The translations under genes and the position numbers were made by a program. A DNA stretch of 6,148 nucleotides from JALTID01 sp027004335 [NCBI: bacterium] (GTDB lineage: Bacteria > JALSQH01), in the NCBI GenBank assembly GCA_027004335.1, contig JALTID010000241.1, positions 1 to 6,148 of the forward strand, in the 5' to 3' direction. A model generated the notes under the pieces. It was not told where the DNA came from. It saw only the letters and a list, made by a program, of their open reading frames with translations, and ran no database searches. Below, one piece after another: positions 3 through 6,148 of this stretch; the stretch's first letter is position 1, and each line of letters begins with the position of its first letter.

Positions 3-116
3 CTTAAATTCTTGGTGAGAGAGAATTTTAGAAAATTTTCTCAGAGACTTTCTTATGCAGATTCCTGGATTAGTAAGTTTTTAAAAAAAGGAAATTTGTG
101 CAGTGAATTATGCAGT
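3..116 (+). CDS. Possible 3' end of an upstream gene (partial, unidentified)
   Basis: The third frame is open from the left edge to a TAA at 114-116 and gives 37 residues rich in basic and aromatic amino acids, including the stretch RLSYADSWISKFLKKG. I do not recognise a family. If real, it is the tail of a protein that begins outside the window and overlaps the ATG at 110 by 7 nt, which is a normal operon junction. It could equally be a piece of the damaged URO-D-like gene read in a shifted frame, or a chance open stretch, because 38 codons is short for an AT-rich sequence. No start codon or ribosome binding site is visible. Confidence 0.25.
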
Positions 117-633
117 TAACTATAATTATAGAATCTTATAAAAAAATAAGTAAAGAGGGGATAGCAGTTGATGGTTTTCACTTTAGTGATGATATTGCCT
201 ATAAGAACGCAATGTTGATTTCTCCAAAGACCTACAAAGAGTTATTATTTCCTTGTCATAATAGATTATGTGATTTCTTTAAATCTCAAGGGCTACCGGT
301 TATGTATCATACCGACTGTAAATTAAATGAAGCCTTACCTTTATTGATAGAGACAGGCATTACTGCTATTCACCCTTTAGAAGCAAAGGCTGGGAATGAT
401 GTGCGTAGGTAAAGAAAACTTATGGAAAAGATTTAGTTTTTGTGGGAAATATTGATGTGCGAAAGATGTCTGGTTTAGAAAAAGAGATAGAAGAAGAGAT
501 AAAAAGTAAGATTTTAATTGTCAAAGAAGGTGGTGGCTATCTTTATCATTCTGACCATTCTGTTCCTCTATCAGTAAGTTTTGAAAATTATAAATATGTG
601 ATAGAGTTGGTTAAGGAATATGGAAAATATTAA
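110..633 (+). pseudogene. Broken uroporphyrinogen decarboxylase-like (MtaA/URO-D superfamily) methyltransferase gene, C-terminal half
   Basis: Two overlapping frames give consecutive pieces of one URO-D superfamily protein. Piece one (110-412) carries DDIAYKNAMLISP, then GLPVMYHTD and HPLEAKAGNDVR. Piece two is open in the other frame from about 409 and contains YGKDLVFVGNIDVRKMSG, then EGGGYLYHSDHSVP, ending at the TAA at 631-633 with a normal family C-terminus. Reading cgt-ag-gta at 404-411 as if one base were missing restores a continuous protein. Family members are usually about 330-380 residues and act in corrinoid-linked methyl transfer or porphyrin synthesis. Here only about the last 175 residues are seen, so the N-terminal half is missing or unreadable. 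The usual HTDG motif reads HTDC (Cys codon 317-319), a further sign of lost constraint. Just upstream of 110 the same frame reads KFVQ, a TGA at 104-106, then IMQ, which may be more of the relic. No ribosome binding site is well placed for the ATG at 110. A single sequencing error could explain the frameshift, but not the missing N-terminus. Confidence 0.8.
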
Positions 634-1810
634 ATTTAAACCGATAGTATTTAATGAATTGCCGGTGCATGATACATGCTGGTCATTGATTACCGGGGTG
701 GATGGTAATATTTATATTGCTGTCTGTGGAGAGATGACAGGAGGCTTGAGTGCCTATATAGTCAGCTATGACCCGGAGAAAGAAAAGATAGAATATTTAT
801 TAGAAGTGGCAAAAGTATTAGGGATACCTGAAGATAGTGGAGAGGCAGCCCATGCCAAAATTCATTACTCTTTAGTTTCCGATGATGAAGGAATGCTTTA
901 TGGTGCAACACATTGCACAGGGCCTCCTTTAGGAGATGTTATCTGGAGACCTTGGAACTGCTGGAGCCATCCGATAAAGAATTTTAGAGGCTCAGGAATA
1001 TTTGGTTATGACCCGAGAAAGAGAGAAATCCTCTTCACTGATTTTCTTCTTCCTCATGAAGGAAGCAGATGCATGGCTATAAGTTGCAAGAGGAGAAAAA
1101 TTTATGGTATTTCATATCCGAGAGACCACTTCTTTATCTATGATTTGAATAAGCATGAGGTGCGTGATCTAGGTCGTATAGGCAGTATCAATCCTCAATG
1201 TATATTTCTTGATAATGAAGAGAACGCATATACTACCGGTGATTACGGAAATTTAATAAAGTGTGATGGAGATAACGAAGAGTTAATTGATACAGGGATT
1301 CAAATTCCTCATGCTAATTTCAGAAATGGTTTTCATAATGTTTTGATTGATGTAACACCTTCTCCTGACGGTGAGAGTGTCTATGGGGTAACCTGGACAT
1401 TTGGAGAAAGACTTTTCTGCTACAATTTTAAGAAGAACAAGATTTATGACCTGGGTAAAGCATATGGAGAAGAGAGAGAAGAATGGTGGCATATAATAAA
1501 CAGTAATGTGGCCGGTCTGGTATTTGGGGATGATGGTTACCTTTACTTTTGTGCAAACCTTCCTGCAGGGAAAGGTTATTCACCACATCTTATTCGCTTA
1601 AATACAGAAACCTTAAAAAGAGAGATTATTGGAGAAATAACCTATCAAGGGAAGCCAGCAGATCATATCTCAAGGGGAACAAAAGATTTCTACGGCAACC
1701 TTTATTTTGCTGAAGTGGGTAATAGTCCGACGAAGATATTTAAGTATGAAGGGGCAAAGTGCAACGGCCAAAGCTCAAAAGTCAGCGGGATACCAAGACA
1801 TTGGGGATAA
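620..1810 (+). CDS. Uncharacterised seven-bladed beta-propeller-like protein (propeller 1)
   Basis: This 396-residue protein is of unknown function. Seven repeats of the form 'DG-x-hydrophobic-Y-G ... hydrophobic-x-Y-D/N' can be picked out: near residues 28-51, 89-131, 159-175, 201-215, 250-269, 305-328 and 357-376. The pattern suggests a seven-bladed beta-propeller. There is no signal peptide or membrane segment, so it is probably cytosolic. A Cys/His/Trp-rich loop at about 97-118 (THCTGPPLGDVIWRP, then WNCWSHP) interrupts blade 2 and is a candidate ligand or metal site. Possible roles by analogy with other propellers are sugar binding, a lyase, or a lactonase/epimerase-type enzyme; none is proven. 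The start overlaps the end of the URO-D-like gene by 14 nt. An AAGGA at 613-617 lies only 2 nt from the ATG, closer than usual, but the next in-frame Met would cut into blade 1. Residues 377-396 are a non-repeat tail. It is a neighbour and likely distant paralogue of the next gene. Confidence 0.85.
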   Translation: MENIKFKPIVFNELPVHDTCWSLITGVDGNIYIAVCGEMTGGLSAYIVSYDPEKEKIEYLLEVAKVLGIPEDSGEAAHAKIHYSLVSDDEGMLYGATHCTGPPLGDVIWRPWNCWSHPIKNFRGSGIFGYDPRKREILFTDFLLPHEGSRCMAISCKRRKIYGISYPRDHFFIYDLNKHEVRDLGRIGSINPQCIFLDNEENAYTTGDYGNLIKCDGDNEELIDTGIQIPHANFRNGFHNVLIDVTPSPDGESVYGVTWTFGERLFCYNFKKNKIYDLGKAYGEEREEWWHIINSNVAGLVFGDDGYLYFCANLPAGKGYSPHLIRLNTETLKREIIGEITYQGKPADHISRGTKDFYGNLYFAEVGNSPTKIFKYEGAKCNGQSSKVSGIPRHWG

Positions 1811-1835
1811 GAAAATTAAACAGTGGGGTGAAATG

Positions 1836-3158
1836 ATGGATCTAAAAAAGAAAAAGTGGCCGGTTCCTCCGGGGGAGGAGGAAAGATTTAAGGGAGAGAG
1901 AATAAAAAAATTTTTGAAGATAAGGGCTGAATATGAGAAATCAGCCTTTGTCAGTGAAGGACATATTGAAGTTCGCCGTTTAGGACCTATTGCTTTTACA
2001 AAACCTATACCTCCAGAGGAATCGGCTATTACTGCCCTTACCTTCTATCATAATGGCAAGATTTATGGGGGGACTTCTGGTAAAAGAGCACATTTATTTT
2101 ATTATGACCCTTCCCCTGATGCTGATGCAGTGGTAGATATAGGGATAGTCGGAGAGAATTTGAGAATAACCTCTCTTGTTGCCGAGGAAAGAGGGAAGAT
2201 ATTCGGGGCAGTGGCAAGGGCAGATGGAAACGGTGAAGGTTTTTTATTCTCCTATTCCCCCTGTGAAGTAACGATAAAGAAACTCGATATTGAAGGGAAA
2301 GGGATAAGAGAGGTATTTGATACACCTGTAGAAGACCAAATCTTTCACAGTATAATTGACCCATGTCATTCTGTAGGAAAGATGGAGGTTTTGACTACCC
2401 CGGCCAAAGGAGAAGGGATTACCTCATTAGTGCTAGATGAAAAAAGAAAATTGTTATACGGGCTCTCGGATAAAAAAGGCATATTTTTTATCTATGATAT
2501 TTCTAAAGGGAAGGCAATAATTAAAGGGCTTGTTGACGAAGTTAATGAATTTTCCAAAAAGTTGATTATGGATAAAGAAGGAGTGGTTTATGGAGCAAAA
2601 GCCCTGGGCGAACTTTTCAGATATGACCCCGAAAAGGACAGGATGGAAGATATGGGTTTATTTACCCCCTCTTTAAAGGGCAGGGAATTATATAATCGGG
2701 TAGATTCCTGGGCTCTGGATGAAGAGACCGGATTGATTTATGGTGGAAGTATAGATGGGATACTGTTCGTTTTTGACCCTATTGAAAGAACTATAACCGC
2801 TTTTGGTAAACCTATTGACCAAACAAGAATTAGAGCAATTACTGTCGATAAAGTTGGAAGAGTATTTGGTGTTGCAGGTGAACCGGGTAGTTGTGCACAT
2901 TTAGTCTGTTATAATCCAGAGACTCGGGAGCTTAAGGATTTAGGCGTTCCACTGGCAACTGTTGAAACACCCTGGTATGGTTATGAGTTTGAATCAGCAG
3001 TTACAGGTAAAGATGGTGAAATTTACCTGGGAGAAAGTGATAGAATAAGCCATTTATGGATTTACTATCCGCCGATGCCTCAGCGCCAAATGGTAAAGGA
3101 TGAAGAAAATGAAAAAAATAGGGTAAAACACAAAAAGGAGGAGCAATGCCAGAGATAA
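1836..3158 (+). CDS. Uncharacterised seven-bladed beta-propeller-like protein (propeller 2)
   Basis: This 440-residue protein is of unknown function. The blade signature is clearer than in propeller 1: an [IV][YF]G core followed by a hydrophobic-x-Y-D-P strand. It recurs at about residues 73-92, 119-142, 203-221, 248-265, 298-315, 340-361 and 393-413, for example GGTSGKRAHLFYYDP and GGSIDGILFVFDP. Seven copies fit a closed propeller. Residues 1-40 are a basic, charged leader with no signal peptide, and the last 25 residues are a very charged tail. I chose the ATG at 1836 because GGGG at 1825-1828, running into GGTGA, lies 7 nt upstream. The ATG at 1833 is one codon longer and also possible. 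The frame stays open back to 1707, but that extension lies inside the previous gene and looks like its shadow. It follows propeller 1 by 25 nt and overlaps the inositol-phosphate synthase gene by 13 nt, so translation is probably coupled. It may be an enzyme, a carbohydrate binder or a scaffold. Confidence 0.87.
   Translation: MDLKKKKWPVPPGEEERFKGERIKKFLKIRAEYEKSAFVSEGHIEVRRLGPIAFTKPIPPEESAITALTFYHNGKIYGGTSGKRAHLFYYDPSPDADAVVDIGIVGENLRITSLVAEERGKIFGAVARADGNGEGFLFSYSPCEVTIKKLDIEGKGIREVFDTPVEDQIFHSIIDPCHSVGKMEVLTTPAKGEGITSLVLDEKRKLLYGLSDKKGIFFIYDISKGKAIIKGLVDEVNEFSKKLIMDKEGVVYGAKALGELFRYDPEKDRMEDMGLFTPSLKGRELYNRVDSWALDEETGLIYGGSIDGILFVFDPIERTITAFGKPIDQTRIRAITVDKVGRVFGVAGEPGSCAHLVCYNPETRELKDLGVPLATVETPWYGYEFESAVTGKDGEIYLGESDRISHLWIYYPPMPQRQMVKDEENEKNRVKHKKEEQCQR
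1864..1883 (+). other. Perfect 7-bp hairpin near the 5' end of propeller 2
   Basis: TTCCTCC (1864-1870) and GGAGGAA (1877-1883) are exact inverted repeats separated by GGGGGA. The hairpin lies about 26 nt after the start codon and encodes part of the Pro/Glu-rich leader. It could slow early translation, but a purine-rich Pro-Gly-Glu coding stretch could produce it by chance. Confidence 0.3.
3136..3141 (+). promoter_or_regulatory. Strong ribosome binding site for the inositol-phosphate synthase gene
   Basis: AGGAGG ends 4 nt before the ATG at 3146 and lies inside the last codons of propeller 2. It is the best Shine-Dalgarno match in the window and fixes the start. It suggests that the synthase is translated more strongly than its neighbours. 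Confidence 0.85.
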
Positions 3159-4249
3159 GAGTAGCAATAGCAGGAGTGGGCAATTGCACAAGTTCTTTAG
3201 TGCAGGGGAGATTCTACTATGAGAAATTGAAAACTAAAAATGGAAAATTAGAAGAGGGAGAGGTGATTTCAGGTTTAATGCATCCAGTATTAGGAGGATA
3301 CAAAGTTTCTGATATTGTTCCAGTAGTTGCCTTTGATATTGATGCTCGCAAAGTAGGCAAGGATTTATCCGAGGCAATCTGGGCTCCTCCTAACTGCACA
3401 ATGAAGTTCTGTGATGTTCCTCATCTCGGAGTAAAGGTTTTAATGGGACCTGTTTTAGATGGAGTAACAGAGCATCTTAAAAAATATGTTGAAATCTCTT
3501 CTGAAGAAGAGATTAATGATGTTGATGAAGTGGCAAAAATTTTGGAAGAGGCAAAAGTAGATGTTATAGTCATTAATCTTCCCACTGCATCAGAGAAAGC
3601 AGCCTGGTTCTATGCCAAAGCTGCTTTGAAAGCTGGCTGCGGTATTGTTAATGGAATTCCTGTTTTGATTGCTAACGATAAAGAATTTAGGAAAAGAGCA
3701 GAAAAAAATAAGGTTCCTATAGTAGGAGATGATTACAAGAGTCAACTTGGAGGAACAATTCTTGATAGAGACCTTCTTAATCTGTGTCAGCAAAGGGGTA
3801 TAAAAATTAAGAAGTCATATCAATTGAATTATGGAGGCAATACTGATTTCTGGAACTTAACAGATTATAGTAGAGGGAAAAGTAAGCATGCTTCCAAGAA
3901 AAGAGGAGTAGACGCGGTAATGAAATACGATGCACCATTTTCAGTAAATGTATCACAGTTAGAAGTACTAGAGGACGATAAAATCTGCAGGATTGAAATA
4001 TGGGGAGAGAATTTTGGAGGAACACCAATAAAATTAGAAGCAAAACTTCATGTTGTGGACAGTCCCAATTCTGCCGGTGTGATGGTAGATGCTATAAGAT
4101 GTTGTAAGTTAGCCAAGGATAGAGGTATTGGTGGAGTATTGGAGAGTGCGTCCTCCTATCTTATGAAAAGCGGGCCAGTTCAGTATCCTTCAGAGGAAGA
4201 AGCCAGAAAAGCAATAGATGAGTTTATTGAAGGAAAGAGGGCAAGGTAA
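3146..4249 (+). CDS. ino1: Inositol-3-phosphate synthase (myo-inositol-1-phosphate synthase)
   Basis: The enzyme converts D-glucose 6-phosphate to 1D-myo-inositol 3-phosphate with bound NAD (EC 5.5.1.4), the first step of inositol synthesis in the cytosol. The 367-residue length matches the short archaeal/actinobacterial type. The N-terminal Rossmann motif is GVGNCTSSL (10-18), followed by VAFDID (61-66). Family motifs follow in order: NLPTASE (144-150), GDDYKSQLGGT (204-214), YQLNYGGNTDF (225-235), a lysine-rich stretch (245-260) where the family carries active-site lysines, DSPNSAG (305-311) and SSYLMKSGPVQYP (336-348). No key block is missing, so the gene looks functional. It overlaps the end of propeller 2 by 13 nt and sits 2 nt before the kinase. 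The product could feed phosphatidylinositol-type lipids, a compatible solute such as di-myo-inositol phosphate, or another inositol compound. No phosphatase or lipid-transfer gene is in view to decide between these. Confidence 0.95.
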   Translation: MPEIRVAIAGVGNCTSSLVQGRFYYEKLKTKNGKLEEGEVISGLMHPVLGGYKVSDIVPVVAFDIDARKVGKDLSEAIWAPPNCTMKFCDVPHLGVKVLMGPVLDGVTEHLKKYVEISSEEEINDVDEVAKILEEAKVDVIVINLPTASEKAAWFYAKAALKAGCGIVNGIPVLIANDKEFRKRAEKNKVPIVGDDYKSQLGGTILDRDLLNLCQQRGIKIKKSYQLNYGGNTDFWNLTDYSRGKSKHASKKRGVDAVMKYDAPFSVNVSQLEVLEDDKICRIEIWGENFGGTPIKLEAKLHVVDSPNSAGVMVDAIRCCKLAKDRGIGGVLESASSYLMKSGPVQYPSEEEARKAIDEFIEGKRAR

Positions 4250-4251
4250 AA

Positions 4252-5208
4252 GTGAAATCTACTTTTGATTTAGTAGTAATTGGTCACCTTTTAAAAGAGA
4301 AGATTATTTTCCCTGATGGAAAGGAGATAGGTCCGGTACTGGGAAGTCCTGCTGCCTATGCTTCTGTATGTGCCTCAGTATTAGGGCTTAAGGTAGGGCT
4401 AGTCACAAAAATAGGAGAAGACCTGCCCGAGGAATTACTAGGGGTGTTCAAGGAGACAGGAGTTGATACTGAAGGAATCCGAATGGATAAAAATACCACT
4501 GCAAATCTCCTCATCTACAAAAGGTCAGGGGATAAAAGGTTGAAATTTTTAAAGAAAGCAGAAGATATTTCTCCTGAGGACATACCAAAGAATTACTTTA
4601 ATGCTCAGTTTTTCTTGATAGCCCCCGTAGATTATGAAGTTTCGGAAAGTGTAATAAGATTCCTGCACCAGAAGGGGAGCAGGTTATCCATGGAATTAAG
4701 TGGATTTGGAGGCGCTTCCTCCAGAGAAGATGGTAAATCTACAAAAGAAGAAAGAATAAATTTAATTCGAAGAGTGACTCCTTACTTTGAGATAGTAAAA
4801 GGAGGGGAAGAAGATTACAGGTGTTTGTTTGGAGATAGTGAGGAAGTAGATACGGCCTACAAGTTTATTGAGTGGGGAGCAAAGATTTCAGTTCTGACAA
4901 GGGGGGAGAAGGGTGCTATTGTAATAAGAGGAGAAGATTTTTTCAAGATTCCATCTTTTCCAGGAGAAATTTGTGACCCTACAGGAGCGGGGGATGTCTG
5001 GCATGCAGGATTCTTATTCAAATATCTTAAGAAAGGTTCTCTTAAAGAAGCAGGCATCTTTGCCTCAGCACTTTCTTTCCTCTTGATCCAGAAAACAGGA
5101 GGAATAGTAAAAGAGAGATTCCCTACCTGTAGACAGGTAGAGAAGAAAATAAGAGAAAAATCAGTAAGTGAAGAACAACAACCTTCAAAAATGGGCAGAA
5201 GGAAGTGA
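4252..5208 (+). CDS. PfkB/ribokinase-family carbohydrate kinase, substrate unknown
   Basis: This 318-residue protein is a member of the PfkB family, which uses ATP to phosphorylate a sugar, nucleoside or inositol hydroxyl. The start is a GTG, with AAGG at 4243-4246 five nt upstream. The N-terminal glycine-rich substrate region is GSPAAYASV (31-39), followed by GLVTKIGED (49-57). The ATP-binding region includes LTRGEKGA (215-222). The PfkB signature is DPTGAGDVWHAGF (242-254), with Asp248 as the expected catalytic base; the Trp at 250 replaces the more usual Phe. The C-terminal FPT...VEKKI (290-300) is typical, followed by an 18-residue charged tail. Its position 2 nt after the inositol-phosphate synthase gene makes an inositol or inositol-derived substrate attractive. 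PfkB-type inositol kinases are known in archaea and plants, and the DPTGAGD form occurs among several PfkB subgroups. The sequence does not prove this; 2-keto-3-deoxy sugar, ribose or fructose-type substrates remain possible. Confidence 0.92.
   Translation: MKSTFDLVVIGHLLKEKIIFPDGKEIGPVLGSPAAYASVCASVLGLKVGLVTKIGEDLPEELLGVFKETGVDTEGIRMDKNTTANLLIYKRSGDKRLKFLKKAEDISPEDIPKNYFNAQFFLIAPVDYEVSESVIRFLHQKGSRLSMELSGFGGASSREDGKSTKEERINLIRRVTPYFEIVKGGEEDYRCLFGDSEEVDTAYKFIEWGAKISVLTRGEKGAIVIRGEDFFKIPSFPGEICDPTGAGDVWHAGFLFKYLKKGSLKEAGIFASALSFLLIQKTGGIVKERFPTCRQVEKKIREKSVSEEQQPSKMGRRK
5123..5140 (+). repeat. Near-perfect 18-bp palindrome inside the kinase gene
   Basis: CTACCTGTAGACAGGTAG has two exact 8-bp inverted arms around a 2-base AG centre. 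It encodes PTCRQV of the kinase at the conserved FPT-x-x-VEK position, so the reading frame is kept. An 8-bp perfect stem is uncommon by chance and resembles the short dispersed palindromes of some bacterial genomes. Only one copy is in this window, so repeat status is inferred. Confidence 0.5.
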
Positions 5209-5214
5209 ATAAAG

Positions 5215-5325
5215 ATGGTTATTGCTAAGTGGTTAATAGTCATTGGTTTGATGATAGTTGGACAGGTGTCTCTGGCTACTATCAATTTGTTAAGACACCA
5301 GAAGGTTGGAGATACTTATGATTAA
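5215..5325 (+). CDS. Possible small membrane peptide (36 residues)
   Basis: The ATG at 5215 opens a 36-codon frame ending in TAA at 5323-5325. GGAAG at 5201-5205 lies 9 nt upstream. The first 24 residues are almost wholly hydrophobic (WLIVIGLMIVG core) and could form one membrane helix, followed by a short polar tail with Arg, His, Lys and Asp. It begins 6 nt after the kinase stop and overlaps the LamG gene start by 8 nt, which fits the operon. No homologue is recognised. A competing frame (5205-5321) also gives protein-like sequence and also joins both neighbours, so only one of the two is likely to be real, and both may be chance or relic. Confidence 0.35.
   Translation: MVIAKWLIVIGLMIVGQVSLATINLLRHQKVGDTYD
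5308..5311 (+). promoter_or_regulatory. Ribosome binding site for the LamG-domain gene
   Basis: GGAG sits 6 nt before the ATG at 5318. It supports that start over later ones and keeps the signal peptide in the product. Confidence 0.6.
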
Positions 5326-6148
5326 TAAAAAAGAAGAAGGGAAGATATTGAGAGTTTTAAGAAGTATAGGGTTTATAGGTTTAGTGACTCTTTTTATCGT
5401 TATAGGGACAAAAGAGGTTTTTAGCCAAGAGAAAGGGCTTGTTCTGGAGTATGATTTTTCTGAGGGGCAGGGTAATATCTTAAAGGATAAAAGTGGTAAT
5501 GGGAACGATGGGGTTATCTTTGGAGCTAAATGGATAAAAGAAGAGAAAGGATATTCTCTCTTTTTTGATGGAGTGGATAATTATGTGGAGGTTAAACACT
5601 CCTCTTCTTTGGAAATAGGAAATGAATTTACTGTTGAAATCTTAGCAAAACTAGGAGAGAATCCCAAGAAAAAAGGTTTTGGAACCTATCGATTAATTAT
5701 TGGTAAGAGAGGTGAATTCTGGGATTCCAACAGCTCTTTTGCTCTTTACGTTGATCAGGGAAGCAGAGGTTTCACTGGATATACTAGATATGGAATGCAG
5801 AATACCTCTAAGAATAATGAAATTTATTTAGTCTCTTGCCCTGTGAGACAACCGAATATATGGCATAAGATAATTTTAATCAAAACGCGGAACAGTTTGG
5901 CACTTTCTGTAGATTTTTCTCCTTTAGTCAGCAAAAGTATCCCCAAAAAGATGATTTCTTCTGCTCAACCTTTAAGAATAGGTGGAGTCCCCGGCCGTTT
6001 CTTTAAAGGCTATATTAGAGAGATAAAAATGTATAATTATGCTAAAGAGACAAAAGGATTCTCTTTCAAGCCCAAAAAAGAAAGGAAGACACCTTATTTG
6101 GTTATGGTGACTTCTTTGGATGAAAGAATAAGTAGTACACCTCTTTTG
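5318..6148 (+). CDS. Exported LamG-like (concanavalin A-like jelly-roll) domain protein, 3' end outside the window
   Basis: The frame is open for 277 codons from the ATG at 5318 to the window edge with no stop. Residues 1-16 are basic, 17-31 hydrophobic (IGFIGLVTLFIVIGT), and VFS before Gln37 is a plausible signal-peptidase site, so the protein is probably secreted or periplasmic. Residues 41-245 match the LamG/Laminin_G_3 pattern: YDFSEGQGN, DKSGNGNDG, LFFDGVDNYVEV, EFTVEI, WHKIILI and LRIGGVPGRFFKGYIREIKMYNYA. This fold binds carbohydrate or calcium and is common as an accessory module of secreted glycoside hydrolases, lyases and sulfatases. After it, a basic linker leads into TPYLVMVTSLDERIS, which looks like the start of a second domain that cannot be named here. 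The gene overlaps the preceding small frame. The role is likely in polysaccharide handling outside the cytoplasm, by inference. Confidence 0.85.
   Translation, partial: MINKKEEGKILRVLRSIGFIGLVTLFIVIGTKEVFSQEKGLVLEYDFSEGQGNILKDKSGNGNDGVIFGAKWIKEEKGYSLFFDGVDNYVEVKHSSSLEIGNEFTVEILAKLGENPKKKGFGTYRLIIGKRGEFWDSNSSFALYVDQGSRGFTGYTRYGMQNTSKNNEIYLVSCPVRQPNIWHKIILIKTRNSLALSVDFSPLVSKSIPKKMISSAQPLRIGGVPGRFFKGYIREIKMYNYAKETKGFSFKPKKERKTPYLVMVTSLDERISSTPLL

Follow-up and report, generated by a model that had tools for sequence, protein, structure and literature searches.

Propellers often serve as single working units. Here we describe two adjacent genes, P1 and P2, each coding for a predicted seven-bladed beta-propeller, which are conserved as a pair. 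Both lie in the window that was analyzed, a stretch of 6,148 nucleotides that makes up the whole of contig JALTID010000241.1 (C241) in the 1.5 Mb, 80% complete bacterial genome JALTID01 sp027004335. Of the described systems, virginiamycin B lyase (Vgb, also streptogramin B lyase; Protein Data Bank (PDB) entries 2qc5 and 2z2n-2z2p) is the best structural match to both proteins and is likewise a single-chain propeller of seven blades, but it is 9-15% identical to them, has no family match listed for them and occurs in another gene context. The GH74-type double propellers have seven-bladed domains in tandem, separated by a cleft, and act on extracellular glucans. They resemble the P1-P2 pair in that two seven-bladed propellers are used together, in relatives of the pair sometimes on one chain (L072 and L155-L157), and no sequence relation of GH74 to P1 or P2 was found among the matches listed. 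The Thermotoga maritima inositol pathway (IolG, IolM, IolN, IolO) enters the comparison through gene context, as genes for IolM, IolO and an IolN-like protein lie near the pair in one locus (L044) and a gene for IolM in another (L048). To our knowledge, no propeller belongs to that pathway. Inositol use in T. maritima is treated in PMC3750489, which cites the pathway paper. Lastly, the Reg_prop sensors BT4663 and BT4673 share the propeller fold with P1 and P2, which show weak Reg_prop matches and, for P2, a PDB match to BT4663. However, these propellers form part of sensor proteins, outside the cell or in the periplasm, whereas P1 and P2 are free-standing, with no leader peptide seen.

P1 (positions 620..1810, + strand) codes for 396 residues and P2 (1833..3158, + strand) for 441, with the P2 start placed by its homologues at the ATG at 1833 and not at the TTG at 1707 of the listed open reading frame (ORF). 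Seven blade motifs were recognized by eye in each protein (NIYIA, MLYGA, KIYGI, NAYTT, SVYGV, YLYFC and NLYFA in P1; KIYGG, KIFGA, LLYGL, VVYGA, LIYGG, RVFGV and EIYLG in P2). AlphaFold2 models were made from alignments of 21 P1 members (A3, which leaves out the partial or frameshifted L048-L051) and 20 P2 members (A4, which leaves out the partial L029). Both models were propellers, with a mean predicted local distance difference test score (pLDDT) of 88.1 and a predicted template modeling score (pTM) of 0.91 for P1, and of 83.9 and 0.82 for P2, in which residues 1-5 and 155-178 had a pLDDT below 50. By hand assignment the predicted strands fit seven blades in each protein, the N-terminal strand closing the last, and both are predicted to be closed rings of seven four-stranded blades. 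The first-pass annotation of the window had claimed a tandem pair of seven-bladed propellers that lack export signals and differ strongly in sequence. The models and motifs bear out the propeller pair, no signal peptide was seen by eye at either N-terminus (no predictor was run), and P1 and P2 are 26% identical over 174 residues. The P1 and P2 profiles aligned in register over their full length (312 columns, E 2.3e-30 in a single comparison), and the simplest reading would be that the proteins are old paralogues that arose by duplication and divergence, with generic propeller similarity adding to the match.

The partnership of P1 and P2 is well supported. An early search of 290 genomes found P1 orthologues of 40-52% identity at four places in three genomes, each adjoining a P2, and a scan of the collection found 24 P1 loci. 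P2 adjoins P1 in 20 of these, and the other four are cut by contig ends, either just after P1 (L032, L033) or inside it (L048, L051). Gene order is P1-P2, reversed among the 24 loci only in L042. When P1 matches of at least 300 bits were counted (28 in 20 genomes; weaker matches, G308:C167 and G309:C568 among them, were left out), P2 adjoined in 23, four were cut by contig ends (G294:C43, G295:C106, G308:C132 and G304:C109) and one was a P1-P1 arrangement. Hence a P2 is present in 23/24 cases in which the contig shows the next gene, while most other neighbors change. The P1-P1 case, on G304:C151 (L110, 1-1383), consists of a complete P1 and the start of a second, L030-like P1 at the contig end, and is possibly part of a P1-P1-P2 array. 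P2 was missing from one of the 20 genomes, G295, whose P1 contig ends. A mirror-tree comparison of the 20 pairs with both genes sufficiently whole gave a correlation of distances (r) of 0.83, which none of 10,000 permutations reached; most clades were common to the P1 and P2 trees, with L036 and L044/L045 placed differently. The pair-bearing records are assigned to Victivallales (some from rumen or abomasum), Verrucomicrobiia, Latescibacterota, Firestonebacteria, Omnitrophota, WOR-3, Actinomycetota, Bathyarchaeota and others; all are metagenome-assembled genomes, of which single assignments may be wrong. With P1 and P2 found side by side in records from many phyla, their adjacency is not due to chance. 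Three genomes (G296, G297 and G305) carry a second, more distant pair type beside a pair of the window's type, and G304 carries window-type P1 genes with their partners cut off, together with a distant pair.

Far relatives extend this pattern. P2-profile matches at 1e-12 were present in 15 of the 64 genomes of the phylum of G282, and eight regions from six of the 15 genomes were studied (G310, G325 and G327-G331 were left out); G282 and G324 have ordinary pairs. Adjacent P1-like and P2-like genes were found in L158, L159, L160, L161 and L162, and likewise in L025, which came from another search. Scores identified the P1-like member clearly in L158, L159 and L162 and fairly well in L025 (62 vs 39 bits), but by a narrow margin in L160 (63 vs 57 bits) and L161 (55 vs 52); all six P1-like proteins keep a Lys-x-His motif. 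Those of L025, L160 and L161 have leader-like hydrophobic starts, as judged by eye. P1-like proteins of L014 and L020 are known from the protein alone. In addition, five fused double-propeller proteins occur in four genomes. The fusions of L155 (two proteins), L156 and L157 (N-terminus cut by the contig start) have a P2-like N-half and a P1-like C-half in 839-880 residues, and their C-halves retain the Lys-x-His. For the two from L155, P2 pieces scored 59-72 bits each, and the P1 profile gave the C-halves 34 and 46 bits against 15 and 10 from that of P2. The L072 fusion has the opposite order, P1 followed by a shortened P2 half, in 709 residues (P1 131 bits, P2 pieces 13 and 40 bits). The two fused proteins of L155 (1618-6927) stand in tandem and have leader-like starts.

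Each protein has a distinctive set of conserved residues. The P1 Lys-x-His at the start of blade 2 (Lys80 and His82, codons 857..865, + strand) was kept in 38/38 aligned P1 and P1-like sequences, including 17/17 P1-like sequences beyond A3, and the residues invariant in A3 also include E38, H98, R150, H170, N191, D244 and others. Invariant in A4 are H87 (codon 2091..2093, + strand; 20/20 P2), R284, H356 and D369, with E63 in the loop before blade 1 (codon 2019..2021, + strand; 19/20), E194, D308, K326 and R404 conserved in at least 90%. Twelve further P2-like sequences kept E63 in 9, H87 in 8, R284 in 7, D308 in 11, K326 in 10, H356 in 1 and R404 in 11. Six of the nine P2 His or charged positions with at least 90% conservation lie in the top (d-a or b-c) loops and none in the bottom loops, the two loop sets being equal in length (96 vs 97 positions). 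Glu38, Lys80, His82, His98, Arg150, His170, Asn191 and Gln193 could line a pocket in P1, and Glu63, His87, Glu194, Arg284, Lys326, His356 and Arg404 one in P2.

Based on these data, we favor the reading that P1 and P2, as its two subunits or as obligate partners, make up a single double-propeller enzyme that would act on a keto-cyclitol or related sugar in the cytosol; taken as a whole, the chances of this reading fall a little short of even. Because the partner stays through much divergence and is fused in both orders, joint action, best explained by a heteromer, is indicated, and P1 and P2 probably form a physical complex. The conservation of Lys, His, Glu and Arg residues makes it rather likely that the pair is catalytic. 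Each propeller would contribute its own set of conserved charged and His residues, those of P2 mainly from the d-a and b-c loops on one face, to a joint acid-base chemistry. By analogy with other propeller enzymes, the reaction would most likely be a lyase or hydrolase step, which is a guess. The substrate could be of the cyclitol type, at least in the clades concerned, because two kinds of inositol-related neighbors occur; we regard this as plausible, if not quite evenly balanced. For the clade of the window, the substrate would be close to those of INO1, an IolG-like dehydrogenase and a PfkB kinase.

The first kind of neighbor is encoded next to P2 in the window, where an INO1-type inositol-3-phosphate synthase homologue of 367 residues (3146..4249, + strand) is followed by a PfkB-family sugar kinase of 318 residues with a GTG start (4252..5208, + strand). 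The INO1 protein matches PF01658 at 86.9 bits (cut-off 27), has an Inos-1-P_synth domain and keeps the SK..SK and KL..AKDRG stretches of 1gr0, whose lysines we take to be catalytic. Its score against the mycothiol-type equivalog TIGR03450 was 348 bits, below the cut-off of 638. We rejected an assignment as an Ari2-type five-membered cyclitol-phosphate synthase, because 1gr0 (296 bits) matches the protein better than 6k96 (183) does. The kinase matches PF00294 at 96.9 bits and no NCBIfam equivalog above its cut-off.

The INO1 of the window belongs to a distinct subclade, whose members are 77-86% identical to it and were found in 7/21 pair genomes versus 0/286 others; the best other INO1 in the 290 background genomes, of which 76 have an INO1 of any kind, is 52% identical. 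For these counts G163, G262 and G282 were set aside as apparently identical to G297, G303 and G307, so that 21 pair genomes remain and not 24, and G145, which has a divergent pair, was placed among the 286 other genomes, as also among the 36 used below. The G304 member of the subclade is a 65-residue fragment. A comparison of 18 subclade rows, representing nine distinct genes (the short L040/L091 and L088 were left out), with 11 ordinary INO1, INO1 of pair genomes among them, gave 19 columns (one a gap) in which each side agreed in at least 90% and the sides differed, and the substrate of the subclade may differ from that of ordinary INO1. Examples are Val147-Gly148 to Thr-Ala and His207 to Asp. 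The subclade comprises 11 genes, six of them within 5 kb of a pair. Three of the remainder sit on contigs shorter than 6 kb, and for two (G290:C1 and G305:C96) the 14-18 kb read contained no pair. Members of the subclade (in the window, L028, L074 and L102-L107) are usually followed by PfkB and often accompanied by an IolG-like dehydrogenase. In L104 a LegC/PseC-like aminotransferase gene (363-1592; below cut-offs) stands beside INO1, PfkB and an IolG-like gene, a neighborhood that is suggestive of an aminocyclitol.

Both INO1 and PfkB stand beside the pair in the window, L028, L106 and L107, and INO1 in L040 and L074. In the locus L028, whose P1 is 80% identical to that of the window, the URO-D, P1, P2, INO1 and PfkB genes are retained and accompanied by genes for an IolG-like dehydrogenase, a class III aminotransferase and an M20 deacylase and by further URO-D genes. 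Other arrangements are INO1, IolG-like, aminotransferase, M20, P1, P2 and a GntR regulator in L074 (recorded as Verrucomicrobiia); GntR, another dehydrogenase, INO1, PfkB, a P1 with a broken frame and P2 in L106; the last residues of P2, INO1, PfkB and an IolG-like gene in L107; and P1, P2 and INO1 in L040. The IolG-like dehydrogenases of L028 and L074 scored 123-133 bits (cut-off 355), and one that is 68% identical adjoins the pair of L045/L073. Genes of the second kind, for inositol catabolism, bring in two loci beyond those with INO1, in both of which iolM lies within 4 kb of P1. Within 5 kb before P1, L044 has IolM (502 bits, cut-off 450), IolO (328, cut-off 300) and an IolN-like protein (166, below the cut-off of 245), and L048 has IolM (517 bits) 1.2 kb before a P1 that is cut by the contig end. 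One control genome in 14 exceeded the IolM cut-off, and T. maritima alone the IolN cut-off. The idea that the pair replaces IolN is unsupported; the pair co-occurs with the IolN-like protein in L044, and the pair genomes G298 and G308 have an IolN over the cut-off.

Several observations weigh against the enzyme and substrate that we propose. Many pair loci have no inositol gene nearby, and no INO1 was found at E 1e-10 in 9 of the 20 pair genomes, so INO1 was rejected as a universal partner. IolM exceeded its cut-off in 4/21 pair genomes versus 1/36 others (p 0.056 by a Fisher test that ignores kinship) and IolN in 2/21 versus 1/36, so that inositol catabolic genes are weakly enriched per genome. 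One pair locus (L042) has a GH130 gene, and another (L031) a transporter, an ROK protein and an iron-containing alcohol dehydrogenase (Fe-ADH) that exceeds the lactaldehyde reductase cut-off (649 bits against 537) and points to deoxysugars. The outer P1-like proteins seldom keep residues other than the Lys-x-His (H98 in 5/17, H170 in 6/17), and the conserved P1 residues are less one-faced than those of P2, the count being 8 for top loops, 4 for bottom loops and 8 for strands, with 1 outside the blades. Moreover, P1-like proteins without a clear P2 occur in L026 and L027 (two in tandem in L027), and a stand-alone relative in L016 scores higher with the P2 profile (60 bits) than with that of P1 (46) yet has the Lys-x-His.

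Neither P1 nor P2 matched a curated family or solved enzyme by sequence in Pfam, NCBIfam and the PDB chains. Searched alone against solved structures, P1 had no match and P2 a sole match, to methanol dehydrogenase at E 0.3. The P1 profile found surface-layer and YncE propellers in the PDB (best E 0.0013), and the P2 profile designed Cake propellers (best E 7.7e-13), the sensor BT4663 (E 2.3e-7), pyrroloquinoline quinone (PQQ)-type propellers and others. In Pfam, P2 had matches below cut-off to Tachylectin (25.1 bits, cut-off 29.8) and DUF5074, and 7/21 P1 members a weak match to Reg_prop (best E 6.5e-4). The Reg_prop cut-off of 20.4 bits was passed by two leader-bearing P1-like relatives (L160, 25.3; L025, 21.5), that of SSL_N (18.9) by three fused proteins (20.9, 31.1 and 27.6) and that of Kelch_6 (25.3) by one (36.0). 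We read the Cake, BT4663, YncE, PQQ, Tachylectin, DUF5074, Reg_prop, SSL_N and Kelch_6 matches as generic propeller similarity. There were no relatives among 158 pattern matches in viral contigs, no match to P1 in plasmids and no paper on such a propeller pair among the matches listed from the open-licence literature.

It is fairly unlikely that P1 and P2 are instead separate enzymes of consecutive steps in one pathway, adjacent through co-regulation and without a joint active unit. They do conserve different residues, their order is reversible, as L042 shows, and fusions occur between enzymes of consecutive steps too. Against this, the partner persists next to P1 where most other neighbors are exchanged, and the alignment of the two profiles in register over their full length is as expected for subunits born of duplication. 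That the pair is a non-catalytic sugar- or cyclitol-binding module, i.e., a sensor, carrier or scaffold like the Reg_prop propellers of hybrid two-component sensors, is a reading to which we give a low probability. It draws on the Reg_prop matches of P1 and its relatives and on the P2 profile match to BT4663, as well as on Foldseek, in whose ranking BT4673 came top for P1 and second for P2, with BT4663 listed for both. However, Reg_prop repeats are short and match many propellers, Pfam scans of the cytosolic pairs found them free of any attached kinase, helix-turn-helix or membrane segment, and the Lys-x-His, Glu and Arg sets would be more typical of catalysis.

We consider it very improbable that either protein belongs, as a divergent member, to one of the known propeller enzyme families, namely virginiamycin B lyase, PL22 oligogalacturonate lyase, PL24/25 ulvan lyase or the 7-bladed lactonases. 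Vgb (2qc5) does head the structure ranking for both P1 (Z 29.3, root-mean-square deviation (rmsd) 2.6, 292 residues aligned, 14% identity) and P2 (Z 33.8, rmsd 2.0, 293 aligned, 12% identity). Among the matches listed (Z 27.5-29.3 for P1 and 30.4-33.8 for P2), however, unrelated propellers (Cdc20, YncE, spliceosome subunits and RACK1 among them) come within 2 (P1) or 3.4 (P2) Z units of the top, and since they score nearly as high as Vgb, the structural search shows the fold only. The comparison with PL22, PL24/25 and SMP-30 suggested by the first-pass annotation returned propellers, with Vgb on top by a small margin and no chain of those three groups among the 50 structures listed, which does not exclude them. 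The catalytic residues of Vgb are His270 and Glu284. The title of PDB entry 2z2p names H270A as inactive. The P1 residues H82, H98, H170 and Q193, three His and one Gln, are reminiscent of the metal site of PL22. No Vgb model was among the matches for P1 and P2 (Pfam and NCBIfam, E <= 1) or for the 41 members of A3 and A4 (Pfam, E <= 0.1), on the assumption that these copies contain such a model, and no PL22 model was among the Pfam matches for the 41 members, its presence in this Pfam copy likewise being assumed. PL24/PL25 ulvan lyases were not named among the PDB-chain sequence matches listed, and the Lactonase family (7-bladed, PF10282) matched 1/20 P2 members at E 0.025 and 0/21 P1 members, none over the Pfam cut-off. 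A further alternative, compatible with the double-propeller enzyme and with either the separate-enzyme or the binding-module reading, is that the inositol link is incidental, the pair serving general sugar catabolism and the INO1 neighbors being a cassette that shuttles among phyla. This is a serious possibility, given how common INO1 is in background genomes and how varied the carbohydrate genes at most pair loci are (MFS, ROK, lactaldehyde-reductase-type Fe-ADH, GH130, GH123-like and flavin adenine dinucleotide (FAD) oxidoreductase). Opposed to it are the INO1 subclade beside the pair, absent from the 286 background genomes, and the IolM or IolO genes near P1 in two other loci.

On balance, the interpretation offered by the first-pass annotation is partly supported. 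Both proteins were modeled as propellers, neither matches a known enzyme family and the neighborhood is conserved, and the annotation's suggestion of two subunits of one complex has gained from the adjacency and from the fusions in both orders. The proposed coupling to Ino1 and PfkB holds for the six loci named above, whereas most pair loci have other genes, and a uronate substrate found no support beyond the IolO of L044.

In the window the pair forms part of a tightly packed operon that runs, 5' to 3', from a URO-D-like gene through P1, P2 and INO1 to PfkB and is followed by a gene for a LamG-domain protein. The URO-D-like gene and P1 overlap by 14 nucleotides, P1 and P2 are 22 apart, P2 and INO1 overlap by 13 and INO1 and PfkB are 2 apart. 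The 5' part of the URO-D / MtaA-like methyltransferase gene (110..633, + strand) is absent from the contig, and its frame is broken near 370-430. A tblastn comparison with the intact L028 homologue places it in frames 2 and 1, and the break may be a sequencing error or decay. URO-D genes occur in 6/25 loci, and as these phyla presumably have many copies, URO-D was set aside as a functional partner. Downstream of PfkB are a short ORF of 36 residues (5215-5325) with a hydrophobic N-terminus by eye, and the LamG/concanavalin-like domain protein (5306-6148; Laminin_G_3 31.5 bits), which has a hydrophobic start and ends at the contig end.

As different propellers whose core families were almost never seen apart in this material (23/24) and which are fused in both orders, P1 and P2 point to a machine of two parts for which the libraries searched contain no curated family, and the pair is probably an undescribed two-part enzyme. 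There is a small chance that it represents a new enzyme class, a heteromeric double propeller that occurs across many candidate phyla, whether cytosolic, secreted or fused, and would carry out a missing cyclitol step, e.g., the opening or dehydration of a keto-inositol, with the linked INO1 subclade making or consuming a non-standard cyclitol phosphate. More generally, P1-P2 may represent a step, widespread yet unnamed, by which cyclitols or sugars are made or broken down.

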